Below, piece after piece: positions 5,402-14,154 of a DNA stretch of 64,000 nt (positions within the stretch are counted from its first letter, which is position 1; each line of letters opens with the position of its first letter). Under the pieces are notes generated by a model, which saw only the letters and a program-made list of their open reading frames with translations, ran no database searches and had not been told where the DNA came from. The position numbers were made by a program, and so were the translations under genes. This DNA comes from Arthrobacter sp. PAMC 25486 (GTDB lineage Bacteria > Actinomycetota > Actinomycetes > Actinomycetales > Micrococcaceae), in NCBI RefSeq assembly GCF_000785535.1, contig NZ_CP007595.1, positions 4,238,439 to 4,302,438 of the forward strand, in the 5' to 3' direction.

Positions 5402-6703
5402 TTAGCCCTGTTGGTACACGTCGGGGATGCCATCGCCGTCGTCGTCGCGGCTTTCGAGTTCGGCCAGATTTCGGTAGTGCTTGTTTCGAATCCTCAGCAC
5501 TACCGTGGCCAGCAGTGCAGCGGCCAGTGACCCTGCAAGGATGGCGACCTTTGCGTGGCTGTAATGGGGGCTGTCGTCGCCGAAGCTGAGCTCACTGATC
5601 AGCAGGGAGACGGTGAAGCCGACCCCTGCCAGAAGCGCAAGGCCGACAACATCGATCCAGGCCAGGCCGTCGTCGAGTGTGGCCTTGGTGGTCTTGGTGA
5701 CGAGCCAGGTGGCGCCAAAGACGCCCAAGAACTTGCCCACAATCAGTGCCCCGATAATACCGATGGCGACGGAGTCGGTAAACGCAGACTTCAGCCCGGC
5801 CACCCCGCCCAGCGCCACGCCCGCAGAGAAGAAGGCAAAGAGAGGCACTGCCAGGCCAGCAGAAATGGGGCGCATGAGATGTTCAAGGTGCTCGGCCATT
5901 CCCGGACCGGCCTCGGGGCCACCGTTCTTGGCGGATCGGATCACTGGGACCGCGAAACCAAGCAGCACGCCGGCAACTGTGGCGTGAACGCCGGACGCGT
6001 GGACGAGTGCCCACGTGGCGGCCGCGAGCGGGATCAGGAGGTACCAGGAGCTGATCCGCTTTTGCACCAACCAGGTGAATACGAGCAACGGCAGGATGGC
6101 CAGCGCCAGGAATCCGAAGTTCATCTCACCCGGGTAGAAGACGGCAATGATGGCGATGGCAATGAGATCGTCCACTACGGCGAGCGTCAGCAGGAACGTA
6201 CGCAGTGCGCTGGGCAGGTGCGTGCTGATGACTGCCAGCACGGCCAAGGCAAAGGCGATGTCCGTGGCGGTGGGGATGGCCCAGCCCTTCAGTACTTCCG
6301 GGCCTGCGGTCCAGTTCACGGCCACGAAGAACAGCGCGGGGACGATTACTCCGCCCACGGCTGCCGCAATCGGGACGATGGCACGTGCCGGGTTGCGGAG
6401 ATCGCCGGCAACGAATTCGCGTTTGAGCTCCAGCCCGGCAACGAAGAAGAAGATGGCCAGCAGGCCGTCGGACGCCCAGCCGCCCAGGCTCAGGTTCAGA
6501 TGGAGTGACTCGGGGCCGATCCGGAAATCGCGGAGGTTGAAGTAGCTGTCGGCGATGGGGGAGTTGGCCCAGACCAAGGCAATCACCGTGGCCGCCAGCA
6601 ACAGTGCACCCCCTACGGTTTCGGAGCGCAGGATGTTGCTGATGCGAAGATGTTCGGCGTAGCTGCCGCGGCTAAAAATGCGGGGCCTTGAAGTGGAACT
6701 CAT
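5402..6703 (-). CDS. nhaA: Na+/H+ antiporter NhaA
   Basis: Exchanges external protons for cytosolic sodium across the cytoplasmic membrane, controlling pH and sodium. About 433 residues with around twelve hydrophobic segments, the normal size for actinobacterial NhaA. The core [20 protein letters not shown] is followed by [17 protein letters not shown], containing the adjacent aspartates equivalent to the ion-binding pair of the Escherichia coli protein. The N-terminal [19 protein letters not shown] and C-terminal [15 protein letters not shown] are also standard. The start at 6703 ([10 protein letters not shown]) is preferred because family proteins begin close to this point; an in-frame ATG at 6742 would add 13 residues. 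A VanZ-like gene follows 6 bp downstream. Confidence 0.93.
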
Positions 6704-7007
6704 GGGCAGGTACGCCCTTTCGGTGGTGTGAAGCCCCGACATGTTGCGTACGGGCTTTTGGGTTCAGCAATGACATTGCCGACCAGACTTCCCGGCGCAC
6801 CTGCACTCCAGTTTACACGGCACGGCGGTGACGAAGGCCCACGAAAATTTTAGTCGCCTGGGTGCATAACTATAGACCTTAGGGCGAAATGTATGGCCGA
6901 GTGAGCGCAGAATTAGCCGGTTGGCAGCCGAATGGTTTGCTATAGGTGGGCTTAACTTGAAGGGCTGCCTATTTGGGGGCATGAAACGTAGAGCTAAGGA
7001 CAATTTC

Positions 7008-7523
7008 ATGAAGAAGGTAACGAAGGCTGCCGTAGCAGCCGGTGCAGCAGCCGCTTTGATGCTCGGAGGCGCTGGCTCGTTGGCGCTGTGGAACGATTCC
7101 AAAACGGTTGATGCAGGAACCATCACCACCGGTCATCTGAAGATGACATCGGACACTGGCAAGTGGACCGATGCGGCAAACGCCGTATTCGACCCGATTA
7201 CTGACCACATCGTTCCGGGCGACACCTTGACATTCAACCAGACAGTGACCATCGAAGCCGACGGTAAGAACCTTAAAGGCAAACTCACTGTGCCGGAGCT
7301 GAGTGAGGATCTCGCCAACCTGCCAGAAGACACGACGGTCAACTTGACCGTAGTGCCTCCGGCGGGCGTGACGTTGACTGAGGGTGCTTATTCTTTTGAC
7401 GGCCCGGGCACATATGCGGTTCCTGTCAGCATCACGATCGTCTTCCCGGAGGCTGCGGAAGCAACAATGAATCACGCCATCAACGTCGGTTCCTTGGCCC
7501 TGACCCTCGAACAGGTCCGCTAA
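7008..7523 (+). CDS. SipW-type signal peptide surface protein 1
   Basis: Exported protein of about 171 residues. The N-terminus MKKVTKAAVAAGAAAALMLG leads into GSLALWNDSKTVDAGTITTG. This is the alternate signal-peptide form processed by SipW-like signal peptidases, where the cleavage zone is followed by (A/L)xW-x-D...aG(S/T)ItaG, as in TasA and camelysin. The rest is beta-strand rich, with alternating hydrophobic residues (VPVSITIVFP) and VPGDTLTFNQTVTI, the pattern of TasA-like fibre subunits. Start chosen at 7008 because AAGGA lies seven bases upstream. An earlier ATG at 6981 would disturb the signal. First gene of a six-gene run that includes two signal peptidases. The fibre role is inferred from family, not shown. 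Confidence 0.8.
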   Translation: MKKVTKAAVAAGAAAALMLGGAGSLALWNDSKTVDAGTITTGHLKMTSDTGKWTDAANAVFDPITDHIVPGDTLTFNQTVTIEADGKNLKGKLTVPELSEDLANLPEDTTVNLTVVPPAGVTLTEGAYSFDGPGTYAVPVSITIVFPEAAEATMNHAINVGSLALTLEQVR

Positions 7524-7543
7524 CACCGGTCCTCAAAGCTCAG

Positions 7544-8119
7544 ATGCGCAAAATCCTCTTGGCGGCCATGGCTGCGGCCGTGCTCGCGGTGCTTTTTGCA
7601 AGCGCCCAAGGCACAGCCGCACTTTGGCGCGCCGAGGGGACGCTGAAACCGGGCAGTATCACCACCGGATCGCTTTCGCTGGCAGTGGGTGACGGGACAT
7701 CCACGTCCGAGGATTTTGCCTTCGAGGATCTGAACACCTCGACTTTAGCGCCGGGAGGATTCGTCCAGGCGCCTCTGACCATCAGCAACACCGGCACCAC
7801 CGCCCTGGGCTACTCCTTGGCCGGGGCCACCTCCGCAACCACGGCGCCAGGTGTCGCCGATACGGAGCTTATTGACGCCGTCGAACTTTCAGTGCACGTC
7901 ACCCATGATTCGGCCGCGTGCGGGGAAAACCTGCCCAGTACCGGTGAGATTTTGTACGTGGGACCACTGAACGGCACCGTCGCAAGCGCCGGCAGGAGTC
8001 TCGAACCTGCCGCCAGCGAAACGCTGTGCATCCAGGTGGCTCTGCCGACCGAGGCGCCGCAGGAGGCCGCCGGAGGAAAGCTGCAACTGGTGCTTTCCTG
8101 GAGCGGTGATCAGCTGTGA
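7544..8119 (+). CDS. SipW-type signal peptide surface protein 2
   Basis: A 191-residue secreted protein. MRKILLAAMAAAVLAVLFAS is the membrane-spanning signal, then GTAALWRAEGTLKPGSITTG matches the SipW-dependent cleavage zone of its neighbour. The mature part is beta-rich with ISNTGTTALGYSL, a typical intramolecular packing motif of the TasA/camelysin-type fold, and ends LQLVLSWSGDQL. Two cysteines flank the domain (AACGEN and ETLCIQ), possibly forming one disulfide outside the cell. Begins 20 bp after gene 1, and its stop overlaps the signal peptidase start by four bases (GTGA), so translation is probably coupled to that of its likely processing enzyme. Confidence 0.78.
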   Translation: MRKILLAAMAAAVLAVLFASAQGTAALWRAEGTLKPGSITTGSLSLAVGDGTSTSEDFAFEDLNTSTLAPGGFVQAPLTISNTGTTALGYSLAGATSATTAPGVADTELIDAVELSVHVTHDSAACGENLPSTGEILYVGPLNGTVASAGRSLEPAASETLCIQVALPTEAPQEAAGGKLQLVLSWSGDQL

Positions 8120-8712
8120 ACGGCGCAACGGCCGCGGCGGCACCTGCCCGGGGCCGCCGTCGAACTTCCAAAAATGAAGAGAAAACCGGCATGCTGTGGT
8201 GGGCCGGTCAAATCTTCTCATGGTTGCTGCTGCTAACCGTCCTGGCGATCGCGGCCGTCATGATCGTGATTCCGAGAGTCGGCGGAGCCACCGCGTACAC
8301 GGTCCTGACCGGTTCCATGGCGCCCGGCATGCCACCCGGCAGCCTTGCCGTGGTGCGCCCTGTAGACCCCGCAACCCTGCGCACGGGCGACGTCATCACC
8401 TACCAACTGAAATCCGGTGCGCCGGCTGTTGTCACGCACAGAGTGGTGGGCGTGGGTTCGACCCTCGACGGCGAACTGCGCTTCACCGCCCGTGGAGACG
8501 CCAACACCGCCAACGATCTGCCCGTGCGGTCCGAACAAATCCGCGGCAGCCTCTGGTATCAGCTGCCCTGGCTCGGCCATGTCAACTCCGTCCTCACAGG
8601 GCCGCAACGGCAGTGGCTCACCTTCGCCGCCGTGACCGGACTGCTCGGCTACTCCGCGTTCATGGCCATAAGTGCCCTGCGCGACAGACTTGAAAGGACC
8701 AAGAAACCGTGA
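8116..8712 (+). CDS. SipW-like type I signal peptidase
   Basis: Membrane-bound signal peptidase of the archaeal/endoplasmic type (S26B), expected to cleave the SipW-type leaders of the neighbouring proteins. From the GTG start at 8116 the catalytic serine is S67 in LTGSMAPGMPPGS. The general base is H108 in VVTHRVVG, in place of the lysine of LepB, and acidic residues occur in RGDANTANDLP (D128, D134). One N-terminal membrane segment (about 30-53) and a C-terminal one (about 165-185, LTFAAVTGLLGYSAFMAIS) anchor it. At 198 residues it fits the SipW group. It overlaps the genes on both sides by four bases, so it is in the middle of a translationally coupled operon. Confidence 0.88.
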   Translation: MNGATAAAAPARGRRRTSKNEEKTGMLWWAGQIFSWLLLLTVLAIAAVMIVIPRVGGATAYTVLTGSMAPGMPPGSLAVVRPVDPATLRTGDVITYQLKSGAPAVVTHRVVGVGSTLDGELRFTARGDANTANDLPVRSEQIRGSLWYQLPWLGHVNSVLTGPQRQWLTFAAVTGLLGYSAFMAISALRDRLERTKKP

Positions 8713-9326
8713 CGCGTTCTCCTTCGCCCGCCCTTGGGCTTCCGGGACGCCGGACCGGATTTGCTGCTGTGGCCGTTGTTGCCGCTGCCTTAAGTACGAC
8801 GGCGGCCCCGGTCATGGCACAATCCGCGCCTTCCGTAGTGGTCGCCGAGGGCTACCCCGATGCGTCGTTTGCGTACAGTGCCGACGGGGTTGCGTACTCT
8901 GACTCCGTTCCCGAGCTGTTTGCCACGTCTGCGAAGCTGGTGCCGGGCGAAGATGTTGAGGAAAAGCTGTGGGTGCGCAATGACAACGCCATGGCGGTCA
9001 ATGTCTCCGTCGCTGCCATGGCACCGCCTGGTGCGGGGGAGGCAGCACATGCGGGGTTGACGCCGTCGCCCGTTGTCACCCTTGAACCGGGGGCTGCAGC
9101 CCCGCTGAAGGTGCGGATGTGGTTGCCGGAGTCGGCCGACAACTCGAGTCAGGCCAGTTCTTTGCCTATTCGATTGCAAGTAAACGCCAGAGAGGCAGCG
9201 CCTGCTGTCTCTGGTGAGCTGGGCGATACTGGGGCGACCGGCGGTATCTGGCCGTTATCTGTGGCAGCGCTGCTGGGCGGGGCCGGAGCGTACCTTGGAT
9301 CGCGGAAGCGGAGCAGGAAGCTGTGA
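8709..9326 (+). CDS. Exported surface protein with LPXTG-like C-terminal sorting signal
   Basis: A 205-residue exported protein of unknown function. It has a conventional signal peptide (RRTGFAAVAVVAAALSTTAA PVMAQSA), a beta-rich middle (KLWVRNDNAMAVNVSV; LEPGAAAPLKVRMWLPES) and a C-terminal tail. The tail reads GELGDTGATGG, then about 18 hydrophobic residues, then SRKRSRKL. This is the layout of a sortase signal: an LxxTG motif (LGDTG rather than LPxTG), hydrophobic stretch and positive tail. No sortase gene is visible in the window. It starts with GTG overlapping the signal-peptidase stop and ends overlapping the next gene, so it belongs to the same operon. Wall anchoring is inferred. Confidence 0.72.
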   Translation: MTRSPSPALGLPGRRTGFAAVAVVAAALSTTAAPVMAQSAPSVVVAEGYPDASFAYSADGVAYSDSVPELFATSAKLVPGEDVEEKLWVRNDNAMAVNVSVAAMAPPGAGEAAHAGLTPSPVVTLEPGAAAPLKVRMWLPESADNSSQASSLPIRLQVNAREAAPAVSGELGDTGATGGIWPLSVAALLGGAGAYLGSRKRSRKL

Positions 9327-9928
9327 TGGATACTCGAAAACGCGCTTTTGCCCGTCGCCCCGTGTCTGGTGCGCGCCGTGGAATGCAGCTCAAGGCGCTG
9401 CTCTCGCTTGGCCTCCTGGCCGGAATTGGTGCCGTGTCCACGCTGGCGGCCTGGACCGGGGGAGCGAGGGCAACGTCGGAGATTGGTGCCGGTACTGTTG
9501 CGATTGGTGTTGTTGATTCGGATGGTTCGGTGCAAGCCAGCTACCCCATGCCCATCGACGGAGCGAACTGGTACCCAGGCCTGAACCGGGCGGTCGCGGT
9601 GACCATCAAGAACACGGGAACGCTGGACGCTGCTTACTCAGTGTCCGGTTCTGTCACTGAGGCGGGTGTTGGAAAGCTGGGTGCGGGCCTGAATGTTAAG
9701 GTGACGGGCGGTCCCACTGCAGCCGACGGCACGTGTAATGGCGAGGTCGTGTTGACGAAGGCTGCCGGCAGTGGTTTCCCTGCCCCGTCGTTGCCACATC
9801 AGCTGAAAGCCGGTGCAGCGCAGCCATTGTGCGTGCAGTATTCGTTGCCGACCACCGCGCCCAGCTCGCTGCAGGGCAGCTCGACCACCATTACGTTGAC
9901 GTTCACGGCAACGGTGGGGGTGTCCTGA
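9323..9928 (+). CDS. SipW-type signal peptide surface protein 3
   Basis: About 201 residues. A basic start (RKRAFARRPVSGARRG) is followed by a hydrophobic stretch and STLAAWTGGARATSEIGAGT, again the SipW-type cleavage zone with AAW and aGT. The mature region is beta-rich: AVAVTIKNTGTLDAAYSVSG resembles the NTG...YS pattern of gene 2. It has two cysteines (DGTCNGE, QPLCVQ) in similar places to those of gene 2, suggesting a shared fold and disulfide. The start is GTG at 9323 overlapping the previous stop, with ATG immediately after as the alternative (9326). The next gene, the second signal peptidase, begins one base after its stop. Confidence 0.77.
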   Translation: MMDTRKRAFARRPVSGARRGMQLKALLSLGLLAGIGAVSTLAAWTGGARATSEIGAGTVAIGVVDSDGSVQASYPMPIDGANWYPGLNRAVAVTIKNTGTLDAAYSVSGSVTEAGVGKLGAGLNVKVTGGPTAADGTCNGEVVLTKAAGSGFPAPSLPHQLKAGAAQPLCVQYSLPTTAPSSLQGSSTTITLTFTATVGVS

Positions 9929-9929
9929 C

Positions 9930-11066
9930 ATGGCTCTGATGGATCGCCGTTCGCGGTCTGCTGCAGGCAGGGCTGCCGTGGAGCGATGGCTTTTCAACTT
10001 TGGCGCCGTACTGGGATCGCTGTGTCTGCTGCTTGCTGCTATGGCACTTGTATTCGGGCTGAAGCCCTTGATCTTTGCTTCCGGATCCATGGCGCCTGCA
10101 CTCCCCACTGGCTCTCTGGCACTTGCTGTTCCCGTCGCCGCTGCTGAAGTTTCGCCGGGGGAAGTGGTGTCCGTTGTTGCATCGGACGGAACCCGGATCA
10201 CGCATAGGGTGGTGTCCACCGATCCAGCGGCGGGGTTGGTGCTCAAGGGCGACGCGAATGCCGTCGCCGATCTGCTGCCCTACACCGGTGTCACCGTCGA
10301 CAGGGTTTTGTTCAGTCTCCCGGGCTTGGGTTACGTGGTCAGCTGGCTGGCCGCACCGTGGATTGTCGTGCTGGGCGCTTTGCTCTGCGCGTACCTTATA
10401 TATGCAGCGTTCTTTCGACCAGGGCCGGGTGCTACCCGGAAGCCCCGTGCTGGGTCCGGTGACGGGGCTGGGAAGTCGGGGCCCCGGCGTAGGACCTGGC
10501 TGGGAATCGGTGCGATGGCTGCGGTTATTGCCGTTGCCGTTCCGCTTGGGGCAGCGGCGAAGGTTGAGCCCACGCAGGCTGCGTGGGCCGCGAATGCCGC
10601 GGCGGGGTCCAACATGGCTGCAATGCAGACGAAAAAGCCCAGTGGGCTGAAGTGCGCCAGCCCGACATCTGGGATGGGCAGGGCCACTAAAGTTGATGTT
10701 ACATGGGCTGAGCCCGCAAGAGGCCCGCTCCAACTGACTGGCTATGTCGTGCGCGCATATGTGCAGGCTCCTGATGGGGGCCCCCCGACGGCATCGGAAA
10801 TCAGTTCCGACATCGTCCCGTCCTCTGTACGGCAGCTGACACTCGATCAGATGGCTGACAACGGCTTGTTGGGCAACCTCTTGGCGGGACTTTTGGGTGC
10901 ATTGCTGGGCATTAATTACAACCTCAAGATCACCTTCGAGGTATCGGCGCTGTATGAGCATGGGTGGGTTTCAGAACCGATTGCTTTCACCACTATCAAC
11001 GCAACGAGCAAGGGCATTCTAGGAATTTTGCTGCCCACTAAGAAACTCAGCTGCCAACTGCAGTGA
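9930..11066 (+). CDS. Signal peptidase I fused to a SipW-substrate-like C-terminal domain
   Basis: A 378-residue protein with two parts. Residues 1-165 form a second S26B-type signal peptidase: membrane segment about 22-45, catalytic S53 in ASGSMAPALPTGS, general base H92 in RITHRVVS, LKGDANAVAD (D108, D113) and a C-terminal membrane segment about 143-162. Residues 166-187 are a charged linker. Residues 188-235 then look like another export signal: RRRTWLGIGAMAAVIAVAVP, then TQAAWAANAAAGSNMAA, which mirrors the AAW...aGs cleavage zone of the neighbouring substrates. The remaining 140 residues (KVDVTWAEPARGPLQLTGYV) look fibronectin-III-like and extracellular. Single-polypeptide fusion of a peptidase and its own type of substrate is unusual. 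Last gene of the operon. Confidence 0.8.
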   Translation: MALMDRRSRSAAGRAAVERWLFNFGAVLGSLCLLLAAMALVFGLKPLIFASGSMAPALPTGSLALAVPVAAAEVSPGEVVSVVASDGTRITHRVVSTDPAAGLVLKGDANAVADLLPYTGVTVDRVLFSLPGLGYVVSWLAAPWIVVLGALLCAYLIYAAFFRPGPGATRKPRAGSGDGAGKSGPRRRTWLGIGAMAAVIAVAVPLGAAAKVEPTQAAWAANAAAGSNMAAMQTKKPSGLKCASPTSGMGRATKVDVTWAEPARGPLQLTGYVVRAYVQAPDGGPPTASEISSDIVPSSVRQLTLDQMADNGLLGNLLAGLLGALLGINYNLKITFEVSALYEHGWVSEPIAFTTINATSKGILGILLPTKKLSCQLQ

Positions 11067-11130
11067 CTTATGAGGGCCGGGGGTCTATGCGACCCGCCGC
11101 CACACATTGAATGCACATGTTATGGGCAGA

Positions 11131-11679
11131 TTAGGGGGAAAAATCTGCGGTTGCCACAGCGGACTCTTGTGCCCACGTTGTGGCGCCGCCATCGATAAGT
11201 GACATTGAGGAAAGGGCCGTGACTTGGCCGGCAGTCAAGGGGACGAACTTGGCACTCAAGTTGTGGCCGCCTGAAGATGGCGAGGCATGAAACATGAATG
11301 TGTTGGCTGGACCCATTCCGGATGAGGGTGCCATGAGAGTCCAGGATCTGGGAATCGACTGCAGGGTGACCGGCGCGTCGAACGTGATCCTGAGCTGAAA
11401 ATGTCCCCTCAGCGGTGGGGCGGGCCAAGCGCCGAAGTCGGTATAAGAAATCTGGGTGCTGTACTCCACTTGCTTATCCCCGGAGTGGGCTGCGAGGGTG
11501 CTGAAGTCGGCCCCTGCTGAGGGAACCCAGTAGAAGTTCGCCTGGTCATTCGGTATTGCTACGTCGACGCTTCCGCTGGCGGATGCTGCCGGGGCGCCGA
11601 TGGCTGCGGCAATAACCGGTGTGCTCCAGGCAGCTCCCTTGAGGATTGCTCGACGTTTTGGTGCAGGCGCGACAGTCAT
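11131..11679 (-). CDS. Tat-signal exported protein, function unknown
   Basis: From ATG at 11679 (alternative ATG at 11700) the protein is about 182 residues. KRRAILKGAAWSTPVIAAAI followed by GAPAASASG is a twin-arginine signal with a signal peptidase I cleavage site after ASA. The mature domain is beta-rich and small (about 145 residues, FQLRITFDAPVTLQSI), with no catalytic motif that I recognise. The same signal-peptide wording recurs in two other proteins of this window (12624-13562 and 18080-19387), which differ in their mature parts. It converges on the signal-peptidase operon, with 64 bp between the stops. A surface or secreted role is likely. Function is not inferred. Confidence 0.75.
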   Translation of the reverse strand: MTVAPAPKRRAILKGAAWSTPVIAAAIGAPAASASGSVDVAIPNDQANFYWVPSAGADFSTLAAHSGDKQVEYSTQISYTDFGAWPAPPLRGHFQLRITFDAPVTLQSIPRSWTLMAPSSGMGPANTFMFHASPSSGGHNLSAKFVPLTAGQVTALSSMSLIDGGATTWAQESAVATADFSP

Positions 11680-11800
11680 GTCTCTCACTCTCCGTTGCAT
11701 CTTGGGAGGCTACCCAACCGGTTAGCCGATCGGCTTATTAATCATACCGACCGGTAATATGTGCGGGGAATCGTCGAGGGAATGTTACGGCCCGGATATG

Positions 11801-11893: not shown

Positions 11894-12317
11894 CTAGCTG
11901 TGCGTGGTCAGCCATTCCTGCGCCAGCGTGGCCTGCAGGTTCAGGGCGCGGCCAATGACCGGCTCTGCCGCCGAGGCGATCTTGGCGCCCAGGAACGGCA
12001 CACTCGACTTGACCTCGCCACTCAGCTCCACCACGGTGGAATCACCGGAGACAACCAGCTTCTGCACGGCCGCGACATCCACGGGCGCCTTGGCCACCGT
12101 GAGCTTGATGGTGTTGGTGCGTGAACCGTCGGCGGCAGGAGCGCTCCAGGACTCATCCTGCGTCACCGTCAGGGTTGCGCCGAGCACCTTCTTGGCGATG
12201 TCGGGCATGCGCGTGGTGGGCAGGGTGCGCACCGTTTGGGTGGTGAACGCCGCCGTGGTGGGCCCGCTGATCGTAAAGGATTTCAGCTCGCCCCCCACAG
12301 TTTCGCTGACATGCTTG
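11894..12317 (-). pseudogene. DUF2505 gene fragment (3' copy only)
   Basis: Encodes the last 140 or so residues of a DUF2505 protein, with the same residues as the complete gene at 13654-14154, including VGGELKSFTISGPTTAAF and the C-terminal AQEWLTTHS. Upstream of base 12317 the homology stops abruptly, and in that frame there are TGA and TAA stops 30-40 bases further on. The 25 or so N-terminal residues and the original start are therefore missing. A GTG at 12298 could in theory start a 134-residue product, but no ribosome binding site supports it. The stop differs (TAG here, TAA in the full gene). Best read as a remnant left by the duplication that produced the 423-bp direct repeat. Confidence 0.85.
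11895..12317. repeat. 423-bp direct repeat, copy 1
   Basis: I could find no difference by eye between this stretch and 13655-14077, which lies 1760 bp further on in the same orientation. Both contain the 3' four-fifths of a DUF2505 gene. Identity starts at the penultimate base of the stop codon and ends at base 12317. Confidence 0.92.
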
Positions 12318-12623: not shown

Positions 12624-13562
12624 ATGCCCCTTTCCGTGACCAATGCGCCTGTCAATACAGGCCGACGAAAGGTTCTTCTTGCCGGTGCTTGGACGGTCCC
12701 CGTCATCGCCGCCGCCATTGCCGCACCGAGCGCTGCAGCCTCCGGAGAACCTGACCTTCAGTCCGCCCTCTCCTACTCGATTTCTGAGGTCAACACGGCG
12801 TGGGAGGGGACCAACGCCGTCACAATCACCAATATGGGGACCGGTGCATTCAGCGGCACTTTGTGGTTTCTCGGTGAAATCTGGGACGCACCGCTCACAG
12901 CGGCCGGATTCTCCCTCAACGGGACTGTCGGTGAACTGGTAACCGTTGATGGTGTGCAGCGCGTTCTGTATGGTCCTGTGGCCGCAACCGTACCGCCAAC
13001 CGGGGCGGCCGTGGAGGTTGTGCTTGACTGGCATGGTTACCCCTTCCTCAGCGTGGGTACCAGCAATGACGCGAGGAATCTGGAGGTCTTCACCACGGAT
13101 CCGCGAATCTCAGCCAACGCCGTACCGGCCACTGGAGGGACGGCGGTTCGTCCGCCGTTGCTGACCTTCACGGTCACCCCGGTCGCCGACACCAGCACGG
13201 GCACCGAGCAGGTGGTGCTCTATAACGGAAACAACCAGGACTACGTAGGCAATGTCCTCCTGGAGGTGGACCTTTACAAGTTCCCGATGTCCTCGTATGG
13301 CTTCGAAGTTGTTTATGACAGTGTGACGTATCAAGGAGCAAAGGTGTTGTCGGTTGCCGAGAAAAGGTTCCTCAGCCGCACAATCATTCCCGTGGCGATC
13401 CCTGCCGGTGGGACGTTTCCCCTCGAGGTTGTGTGGGCACAATTATCTTCAAGCGCCAACGGCGACCTTGCCCGGCCGTTGCGGGTTCGACTGGATGCCA
13501 CGGCACACACCATCCTGACCGGATCCGGTGATGTGAACGTGCGCGCGCCGATTTCCGTCTGA
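12624..13562 (+). CDS. Tat-signal exported protein, function unknown
   Basis: A 312-residue exported protein. GRRKVLLAGAWTVPVIAAAI then AAPSAAASG gives a twin-arginine signal with cleavage after A-A-S. The mature part appears to contain two repeated beta domains: both have an interior N-(M/N)G...G.(L/V)...(V/L)...F pattern followed by a G(F/Y)-x-x-x-(V/L) turn and a V-P...G-x-x-F/V-x-x-V strand, and the first starts near residue 55 and the second near 185. Start chosen at 12624 because of AAGGA eight bases upstream. It is enclosed by two copies of a 423-bp direct repeat and faces a strong hairpin (13596-13635). No catalytic signature recognised. Likely a surface-layer or adhesin-type protein. 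Confidence 0.75.
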   Translation: MPLSVTNAPVNTGRRKVLLAGAWTVPVIAAAIAAPSAAASGEPDLQSALSYSISEVNTAWEGTNAVTITNMGTGAFSGTLWFLGEIWDAPLTAAGFSLNGTVGELVTVDGVQRVLYGPVAATVPPTGAAVEVVLDWHGYPFLSVGTSNDARNLEVFTTDPRISANAVPATGGTAVRPPLLTFTVTPVADTSTGTEQVVLYNGNNQDYVGNVLLEVDLYKFPMSSYGFEVVYDSVTYQGAKVLSVAEKRFLSRTIIPVAIPAGGTFPLEVVWAQLSSSANGDLARPLRVRLDATAHTILTGSGDVNVRAPISV

Positions 13563-13653: not shown

Positions 13654-14154
13654 TTAGCTGTGCGTGGTCAGCCATTCCTGCGCCAGCGTGGCCTGCAGGT
13701 TCAGGGCGCGGCCAATGACCGGCTCTGCCGCCGAGGCGATCTTGGCGCCCAGGAACGGCACACTCGACTTGACCTCGCCACTCAGCTCCACCACGGTGGA
13801 ATCACCGGAGACAACCAGCTTCTGCACGGCCGCGACATCCACGGGCGCCTTGGCCACCGTGAGCTTGATGGTGTTGGTGCGTGAACCGTCGGCGGCAGGA
13901 GCGCTCCAGGACTCATCCTGCGTCACCGTCAGGGTTGCGCCGAGCACCTTCTTGGCGATGTCGGGCATGCGCGTGGTGGGCAGGGTGCGCACCGTTTGGG
14001 TGGTGAACGCCGCCGTGGTGGGCCCGCTGATCGTAAAGGATTTCAGCTCGCCCCCCACAGTTTCGCTGACATGCTTGATGAAGGCTTCGTTGGTAAAGAC
14101 GTCTGTCACGTTCTGAGCCGTTGCGGCCAGCGTGGTTGAGGCGGCAAGCGCCAT
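13654..14154 (-). CDS. DUF2505 (SRPBCC-fold) protein
   Basis: A 166-residue cytosolic protein of the DUF2505 family, common in actinobacteria and built on the SRPBCC/START-like lipid or ligand-binding fold. Its function is not established. The sequence begins MALAASTTLAATAQNVTDVF, has an ITKxW-like beta core (LTVTQDESWSAP, TIKLTVAKAPVDV) and ends with the long amphipathic C-terminal helix (PVIGRALNLQATLAQEWL) that closes the cavity in this fold. It is divergent from mfd, with 173 bp between the starts, where the promoters of both must lie. The last 423 bp of the gene are the second copy of the direct repeat. Confidence 0.8.
   Translation of the reverse strand: MALAASTTLAATAQNVTDVFTNEAFIKHVSETVGGELKSFTISGPTTAAFTTQTVRTLPTTRMPDIAKKVLGATLTVTQDESWSAPAADGSRTNTIKLTVAKAPVDVAAVQKLVVSGDSTVVELSGEVKSSVPFLGAKIASAAEPVIGRALNLQATLAQEWLTTHS
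13655..14077. repeat. 423-bp direct repeat, copy 2
   Basis: Matches 11895-12317 base for base as far as I can see. This copy is part of the intact DUF2505 gene. With the copy 1760 bp away it encloses one secreted-protein gene and a spacer. Confidence 0.92.

Follow-up and report, generated by a model that had tools for sequence, protein, structure and literature searches.

Signal peptidases are normally separate chains from their substrates; why, then, would one carry in the same polypeptide what looks like its own substrate? The question is raised by a gene for a 378-residue protein in a 64,000-nucleotide stretch of the Arthrobacter sp. PAMC 25486 genome (contig NZ_CP007595.1, positions 4,238,439 to 4,302,438; hereafter, the window), which joins an endoplasmic reticulum (ER)-type signal peptidase (S26B, SipW-like), an internal signal, and a fibronectin type III tail. 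The likely answer is a natural fusion of the peptidase with a client that relatives encode separately, just downstream of the enzyme. The client's signal peptide, now internal, would take the tail outside and would most likely be cut at A217|A218 by an S26B activity of the locus. The freed, immunoglobulin (Ig)-like tail would most likely be a low-copy accessory that starts or anchors fibers of the neighboring SipW-type proteins, with the fusion holding enzyme and accessory at one to one.

Architecture of the fused protein and its internal signal

The open reading frame (ORF) runs from ATG to TGA and begins one base past the stop of the upstream gene. Its peptidase part has the signal peptidase fold, and residues 27 to 138 match TIGR02228 (sigpep_I_arch; E = 2.3e-13) with scores on both sides of the cut-off of 51.85 bits (50.3 bits in the protein scan and 52.6 bits in the genome scan); the match to the SipW model NF046067 is weak (E = 4.9e-8; 32.8 bits, below the equivalog cut-off of 190 bits). 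The assignment to S26B, made in an earlier, sequence-only reading of the window, is well supported, borderline as the profile score is. In S26B enzymes, a Ser-His pair takes the place of Ser-Lys (PMC10269814). Ser53, His92, and Asp108, singled out in that reading, are indeed invariant in 22 relatives; Asp114 is equally invariant, and the third catalytic residue is probably D108 or D114.

The AlphaFold2 (AF2) model of the whole protein has helices at residues 12 to 42, 143 to 162, and 187 to 209 and beta structure from residue 238 to 377. The peptidase part would span the membrane twice and end in the cytoplasm, and the 15 residues preceding the third transmembrane segment have a net positive charge in 64 of 74 fused relatives. 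A fibronectin type III fold, as the earlier reading had suspected, is present in the tail at about residues 231 to 371; Pfam PF00041 does not match the 378-residue protein and has hits at E <= 0.1 in 3 of 22 relatives (best, 6e-5). Cys242 and Cys375 of the tail are invariant in one alignment (A1). A separate internal start that would give a stand-alone tail is unlikely: the sole in-frame ATG, GTG, or TTG between residues 160 and 221 is an ATG that falls within the hydrophobic segment, at residue 196.

The third hydrophobic segment ends in a SipW-type site, T215-Q-A217|A218-W219, with T215, A217, and W219 at P3, P1, and P2'. Across residues 164 to 235 in two alignments of 22 relatives each, conservation reaches at least 70% in both only at T215, A217, residue 219, A223, and A225: T215 is 95% and A217 100% conserved, and residue 219 is Phe in 77% and 73% of the sequences, respectively (A218 reaches 86% in one alignment, and A231 reaches 73% in the other). 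Within the hydrophobic core, no column reaches 70%. A conserved site next to an unconserved membrane core is the pattern of a cleavable signal. The aligned relatives thus retain the tail signal, whose absence from homologous genes would have told against the earlier reading; the further claim of that reading, that residues 188 to 235 repeat the leader of the neighboring substrates, stands as to the leader itself, with the extent corrected to about residues 187 to 217 plus the start of the mature protein and with the cut predicted at 217|218.

The same pattern bears on whether the third segment is instead a permanent anchor, its tethered tail recruiting substrates or docking fibers beside the active site. 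The predicted hydrophobic helix (187 to 209) would allow this, and streptococcal SipA, a signal-peptidase-like membrane protein, is required for pilus polymerization (PMC4049620). Yet it is P3, P1, and P2' that are conserved and not the membrane core, the homologous tails of split relatives carry the leader at their N terminus, and an unprocessed TasA leader blocks Sec in Escherichia coli (PMC10269814), all of which makes a plain membrane helix improbable.

The motif T.A.[FWY] occurs in 48 of 74 tails of fused clade A enzymes (clade A is the peptidase lineage defined below; two LPXTG-type rows, L075 and L082, were moved to the other class) against 5.1% of shuffles, in 248 of 302 independent substrates against 4.0%, and in 6 of 22 stand-alone tails against 2.8% (the 22 are drawn from 32 downstream proteins, with ten LPXTG-type or other substrates set aside). 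A slightly wider motif is found in 1 of 97 first and 11 of 97 second transmembrane regions and in 50 of 80 tails that lack an LPXTG-like end. The second signal is of the neighbors' type, as had been proposed. A small-x-Ala site with an aromatic P2' residue, as in TasA (which also has Thr at P3 and Ala at P1) and in the substrates of the operon, is present in the fused protein. TasA, which is cut by SipW, carries Trp at P2 and Phe at P2' (PMC10269814), and a TasA construct lacking the signal begins A-F, according to its primer (PMC10516879).

Several profile and motif results weigh against a SipW-type leader in the fused protein. The TIGR04088 profile does not detect the leader in the 378-residue protein and finds it in 4 of 22 relatives (E <= 1; best, 2.8e-4) and in 2 of 22 in the other set. 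A hidden Markov model of the leaders of the 302 independent substrates reached at least 10 bits in 7 of 99 fused ORFs (shuffles, 0 of 990); it was dropped as too insensitive, and alignment columns and motif counts against shuffles were used instead. T.A without the aromatic residue was rejected as evidence, being present in 67% of shuffles, and the smaller share of stand-alone tails with the aromatic residue argues mildly against its being essential. The silence of TIGR04088 could even be taken to mean that the segment is a chance hydrophobic stretch or an artifact of gene calling, a scarcely credible view that is untenable given conservation over many genomes and the split forms described below.

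Small residues at P3 and P1 (here, T and A) would also suit an ordinary P-type signal peptidase, in which case nothing about the cut would be S26B specific, and the LPXTG-type fused tails, mostly A-x-A without an aromatic P2', would agree with this. LepB, however, cuts sites with an aromatic P2', including that of TasA, inefficiently (PMC10269814), and the 378-residue protein has Trp at this position; cleavage by a P-type enzyme is accordingly very improbable.

Recurrence of the fusion and its split counterparts

Matches to the 378-residue protein at E <= 1e-6, stand-alone peptidases included, occur in 118 of 245 genomes of the family, and 39 of 396 genomes of a phylum-wide sample match at E <= 1e-8. 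The gene is patchy even close to home, as 5 of the 16 same-genus genomes among those listed (its own included) match at E < 1e-30. Among plasmids, 4 of 72,556 records match, none over more than 80% of the query, and the one region inspected holds a stand-alone peptidase.

Besides the window, the sample comprised 60 loci of the family, taken as the highest in the match list, and the 80 best-matching of 154 named places, in Rhodococcus, Glutamicibacter, Gordonia, Dietzia, Aeromicrobium, Frigoribacterium, and elsewhere. Some contigs are present in both sets (e.g., L033 and L092), and because the loci were drawn from the best matches, the shares of fused genes given here are not frequencies. These 141 loci hold 249 S26B ORFs, of which 99 distinct ones extend into a tail of 120 residues or more (a few of these tails being low-complexity extensions), such that the domain order of the 378-residue protein recurs in other actinobacteria.

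Dropping ORFs with a domain score below 120 or an identical domain left 226 S26B rows for a tree, which was built by a quick method under plain LG+G4, with long branches and many weak forks flagged. It separates clade A (133 rows) from clade B (93 rows) with a support of 100, and fusions account for 94 of the 133 clade A rows versus 2 of the 93 clade B rows, of which one (L137) looks like a proline-rich extension. The one clear clade B fusion (L053:6961-8268) joins a peptidase to an LPXTG-like protein; by eye, its tail resembles the LPXTG-like protein of the window, there a separate gene with a 4-base overlap. A fused clade A gene is present in 40 of the 60 family loci and 59 of the 80 named loci; clade A is represented by stand-alone genes only in 13 family and 21 named loci, and 7 family loci have no clade A gene.

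The fused tails are of three kinds. The commonest has a SipW-type leader and no cell wall anchor. The second, represented by 20 clade A rows, ends in an LPXTG-like sequence and mostly has an A-x-A leader, with T.A.[FWY] in none of the 20. A rare third kind, in a genome of the same genus (L087:5654-7153, left out of the tree by the score filter), couples the leader A-H-A|A-F to a laminin-G-like tail (Laminin_G_3, E = 1.8e-21); on the same strand of that locus, a motif search found no SipW-type neighbor.

Where a clade A peptidase stands alone, the tail can usually be traced to the next gene. Among 32 leader-bearing genes next downstream of such peptidases, 25 encode proteins that match fused tails at E < 1e-5 (26 at E < 1e-3; shuffled controls, 0 of 32), and thus the tail is a separate exported protein elsewhere. 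Six of the 25 are LPXTG type, and 17 overlap the peptidase gene by 4 or 8 bases, with gene starts picked mechanically as those nearest to the stop. Prescottella agglutinans (L162) has such an overlapping split form (tail match, E = 1.1e-47), and the best match of all (L123; E = 7.6e-71, starting 11 bases past the stop) is nested among fused Rhodococcus genes. The idea that every next gene is a split tail was rejected: 6 of the 32 have no fused-tail match, and one, in Gordonia spumicola (L122), matches at E = 4.3e-5 only. The downstream protein of Dietzia aurantiaca (L133) has the layout of the overlapping split forms and no match to fused tails, and at L138, L142, L164, and L074, another substrate follows the peptidase.

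On the clade A tree, the fused versus stand-alone state needs 16 changes, and the starred branches require at least 7 changes of the F1 label. Together with the split forms, this indicates that enzyme and tail have been fused, or a fused gene split, several times, the tree giving no direction. The gene history supports the suggestion that the peptidase is joined to its own substrate, the tail being a leader-bearing protein in its own right in relatives.

Individual copies depart from the common form. An in-frame TAG interrupts the fused copy of Glutamicibacter ardleyensis (L033:5256-6449 and L092:5923-6354) close to where the peptidase part ends, and two Aeromicrobium loci (L144 and L166), with four and five S26B ORFs, hold one clade A copy each with altered motifs around the retained Ser and Asp (RSDSM or RSSSM, KAD).

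Candidate enzymes for cutting the internal signal

Cleavage may fall to the fused enzyme on its own chain, to a further copy of that enzyme, or to the stand-alone neighbor. The Ser, His, and Asp motifs are retained in all 94 fused clade A rows and in 36 of 39 stand-alone ones (the motif pattern likewise misses 26 of the 93 clade B rows, chiefly because of a differing residue before S-M). TIGR02228 (E <= 1e-6) gave the fused enzyme as its single match in 7 of 40 genomes with a fusion; all seven loci have neighbors with SipW-type leaders, and in five, a separate gene with a T-x-A-x-W leader lies directly downstream. With no second S26B found in these genomes, clade A fused enzymes most likely cut such leaders. 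As the seven carry the LPXTG type of tail, they do not bear directly on self-cleavage of tails like that of the 378-residue protein.

A narrower form of the fusion explanation has the tail cut only in trans, by the stand-alone S26B peptidase at 8116-8712, and the fusion acting as a co-expression device. A clade B peptidase usually lies near the window's kind of tail, being present in 55 of the 59 named loci with a fusion and in 20 of the 40 such family loci. Cleavage restricted to trans is nonetheless rather unlikely in view of the complete catalytic motifs of the 94 fused enzymes and of the seven genomes with the fused enzyme as their sole S26B found. A cut made in cis, and its use as a built-in maturation switch, both raised in the earlier reading, are conjecture at this point. 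Within the fusion explanation, we tentatively entertain a self-maturing peptidase that would export its attached client and then cut it in cis, yielding one fiber-starting protein per enzyme right where the other substrates undergo processing; lineages may have swapped cargo (fibronectin type III, LPXTG anchored, and one laminin-G-like), with S26B as the cargo carrier.

The operon and comparable known systems

The region 7008-11066 carries six genes in head-to-tail order, spaced by 20, -4, -4, -4, and +1 bases (Table 1), in a genome of one contig (4.59 Mb). Judged by the fused protein, the closest named relatives belong to Arthrobacter and Glutamicibacter, which suggests a placement in Micrococcaceae near Arthrobacter. 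A promoter scan over 6700-11400 found none, and the five terminator-like sites in that interval compare with a chance level of 4.7. Cut positions in the leaders of the separate substrates were placed by analogy.

Table 1. Features of the fused gene and its operon (window coordinates)
Feature	Position	Strand	Basis or remark
Fused gene: S26B signal peptidase, internal SipW-type signal, fibronectin type III tail	9930..11066	+	378 aa
S26B peptidase part, residues 1-163; predicted transmembrane helices 12-42 and 143-162	9930..10418	+	
Ser53, catalytic by family	10086..10088	+	Invariant in both relative alignments
His92, catalytic by family	10203..10205	+	Invariant in both relative alignments
D108-D114 stretch, both Asp invariant	10251..10271	+	
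Loop 164-186, predicted cytoplasmic, basic toward its end	10419..10487	+	Sequence
Internal signal: third hydrophobic helix 187-209, c-region to T215-Q216-A217	10488..10580	+	Predicted helix; T215/A217 conservation
Predicted mature tail 218-378, first residues A-W	10581..11063	+	
Separate SipW-type exported protein, leader S-L-A|L-W	7008..7523	+	TIGR04089, 143.8 bits; TIGR04088, 31.8 bits
Separate exported protein, leader T-A-A|L-W	7544..8119	+	TIGR04089, 40.4 bits (below cut-off of 60)
Second S26B peptidase, stand-alone, clade B	8116..8712	+	TIGR02228, 83 bits; tree
LPXTG-like surface protein	8709..9326	+	TIGR01167, 15.3 bits (slightly below cut-off of 15.9)
Separate exported protein, leader T-L-A|A-W, without family	9323..9928	+	phmmer relatives

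A fold search with the product of 7008-7523 gave weak matches to pilus subunits and to a TasA fiber, none below E = 0.001: the TasA fiber (8aur_A) ranks fourth (E = 0.022), and the top rows include a PapG pilin domain, a chain of the type 1 pilus tip complex, and CfaB. Beyond the operon, an exact 300-nucleotide direct repeat (11895-12194 and 13655-13954, 1,760 bases apart) sits within two copies of a minus-strand ORF (11894-12298 and 13654-14154). The exported-looking proteins of 11131-11700 (minus strand) and 12624-13562 (plus strand) have leaders that are alike by eye, a basic start followed by PVIAAAI and APAA/APSAA, and neither has an NCBIfam or Pfam family at E <= 1.

The closest known parallel is the tapA-sipW-tasA operon of Bacillus subtilis, which likewise pairs an ER-type signal peptidase with dedicated exported substrates (PMC10151520, PMC9674648, PMC10516879), the TasA site having an aromatic P2' residue (PMC10269814). 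TapA has a complete Ig fold, is low in abundance, as is SipW, and its gene overlaps sipW stop to start (PMC10151520). In contrast to that operon, peptidase and Ig-like client here form one chain with the peptidase first, and the operon has two S26B enzymes. By analogy, the gene product would act as a SipW-type peptidase with a TapA-like client attached, and the likely role of the tail would be that of a TapA-like accessory of a TasA-type fiber; a phmmer search of the tail against solved chains returned 6nyr_A and 4wtx_A only, neither named TapA.

The exported proteins of TIGR04088 and TIGR04089, of which the product of 7008-7523 is a member and that of 7544-8119 falls near but below the cut-off, share the leader type, whereas the tail of the fused protein has a fibronectin type III fold and follows an internal signal. 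The sipW-bsaA operon of Clostridium perfringens also sets SipW beside a fiber protein, but the excerpted text of PMC7395162 describes no fusion of peptidase and substrate. In the open-access literature searched, which lacks most subscription journals, no signal peptidase naturally fused to its substrate was seen. E. coli LepB and Bacillus SipS cleave themselves, with cuts falling within the enzyme; they resemble the present case in that a signal peptidase cuts its own chain and differ from it in that, here, a whole exported domain would be released.

The annotation profiles applied to this protein catch the peptidase part only and neither the internal signal nor the tail. A recurrent fusion of enzyme and client with a retained site is a natural test of how a substrate meets its peptidase, in cis or in trans, and the naturally linked enzyme-signal pair is useful for structural work on ER-type signal peptidases. 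The fusion also points to TasA-like fiber systems in actinobacteria.
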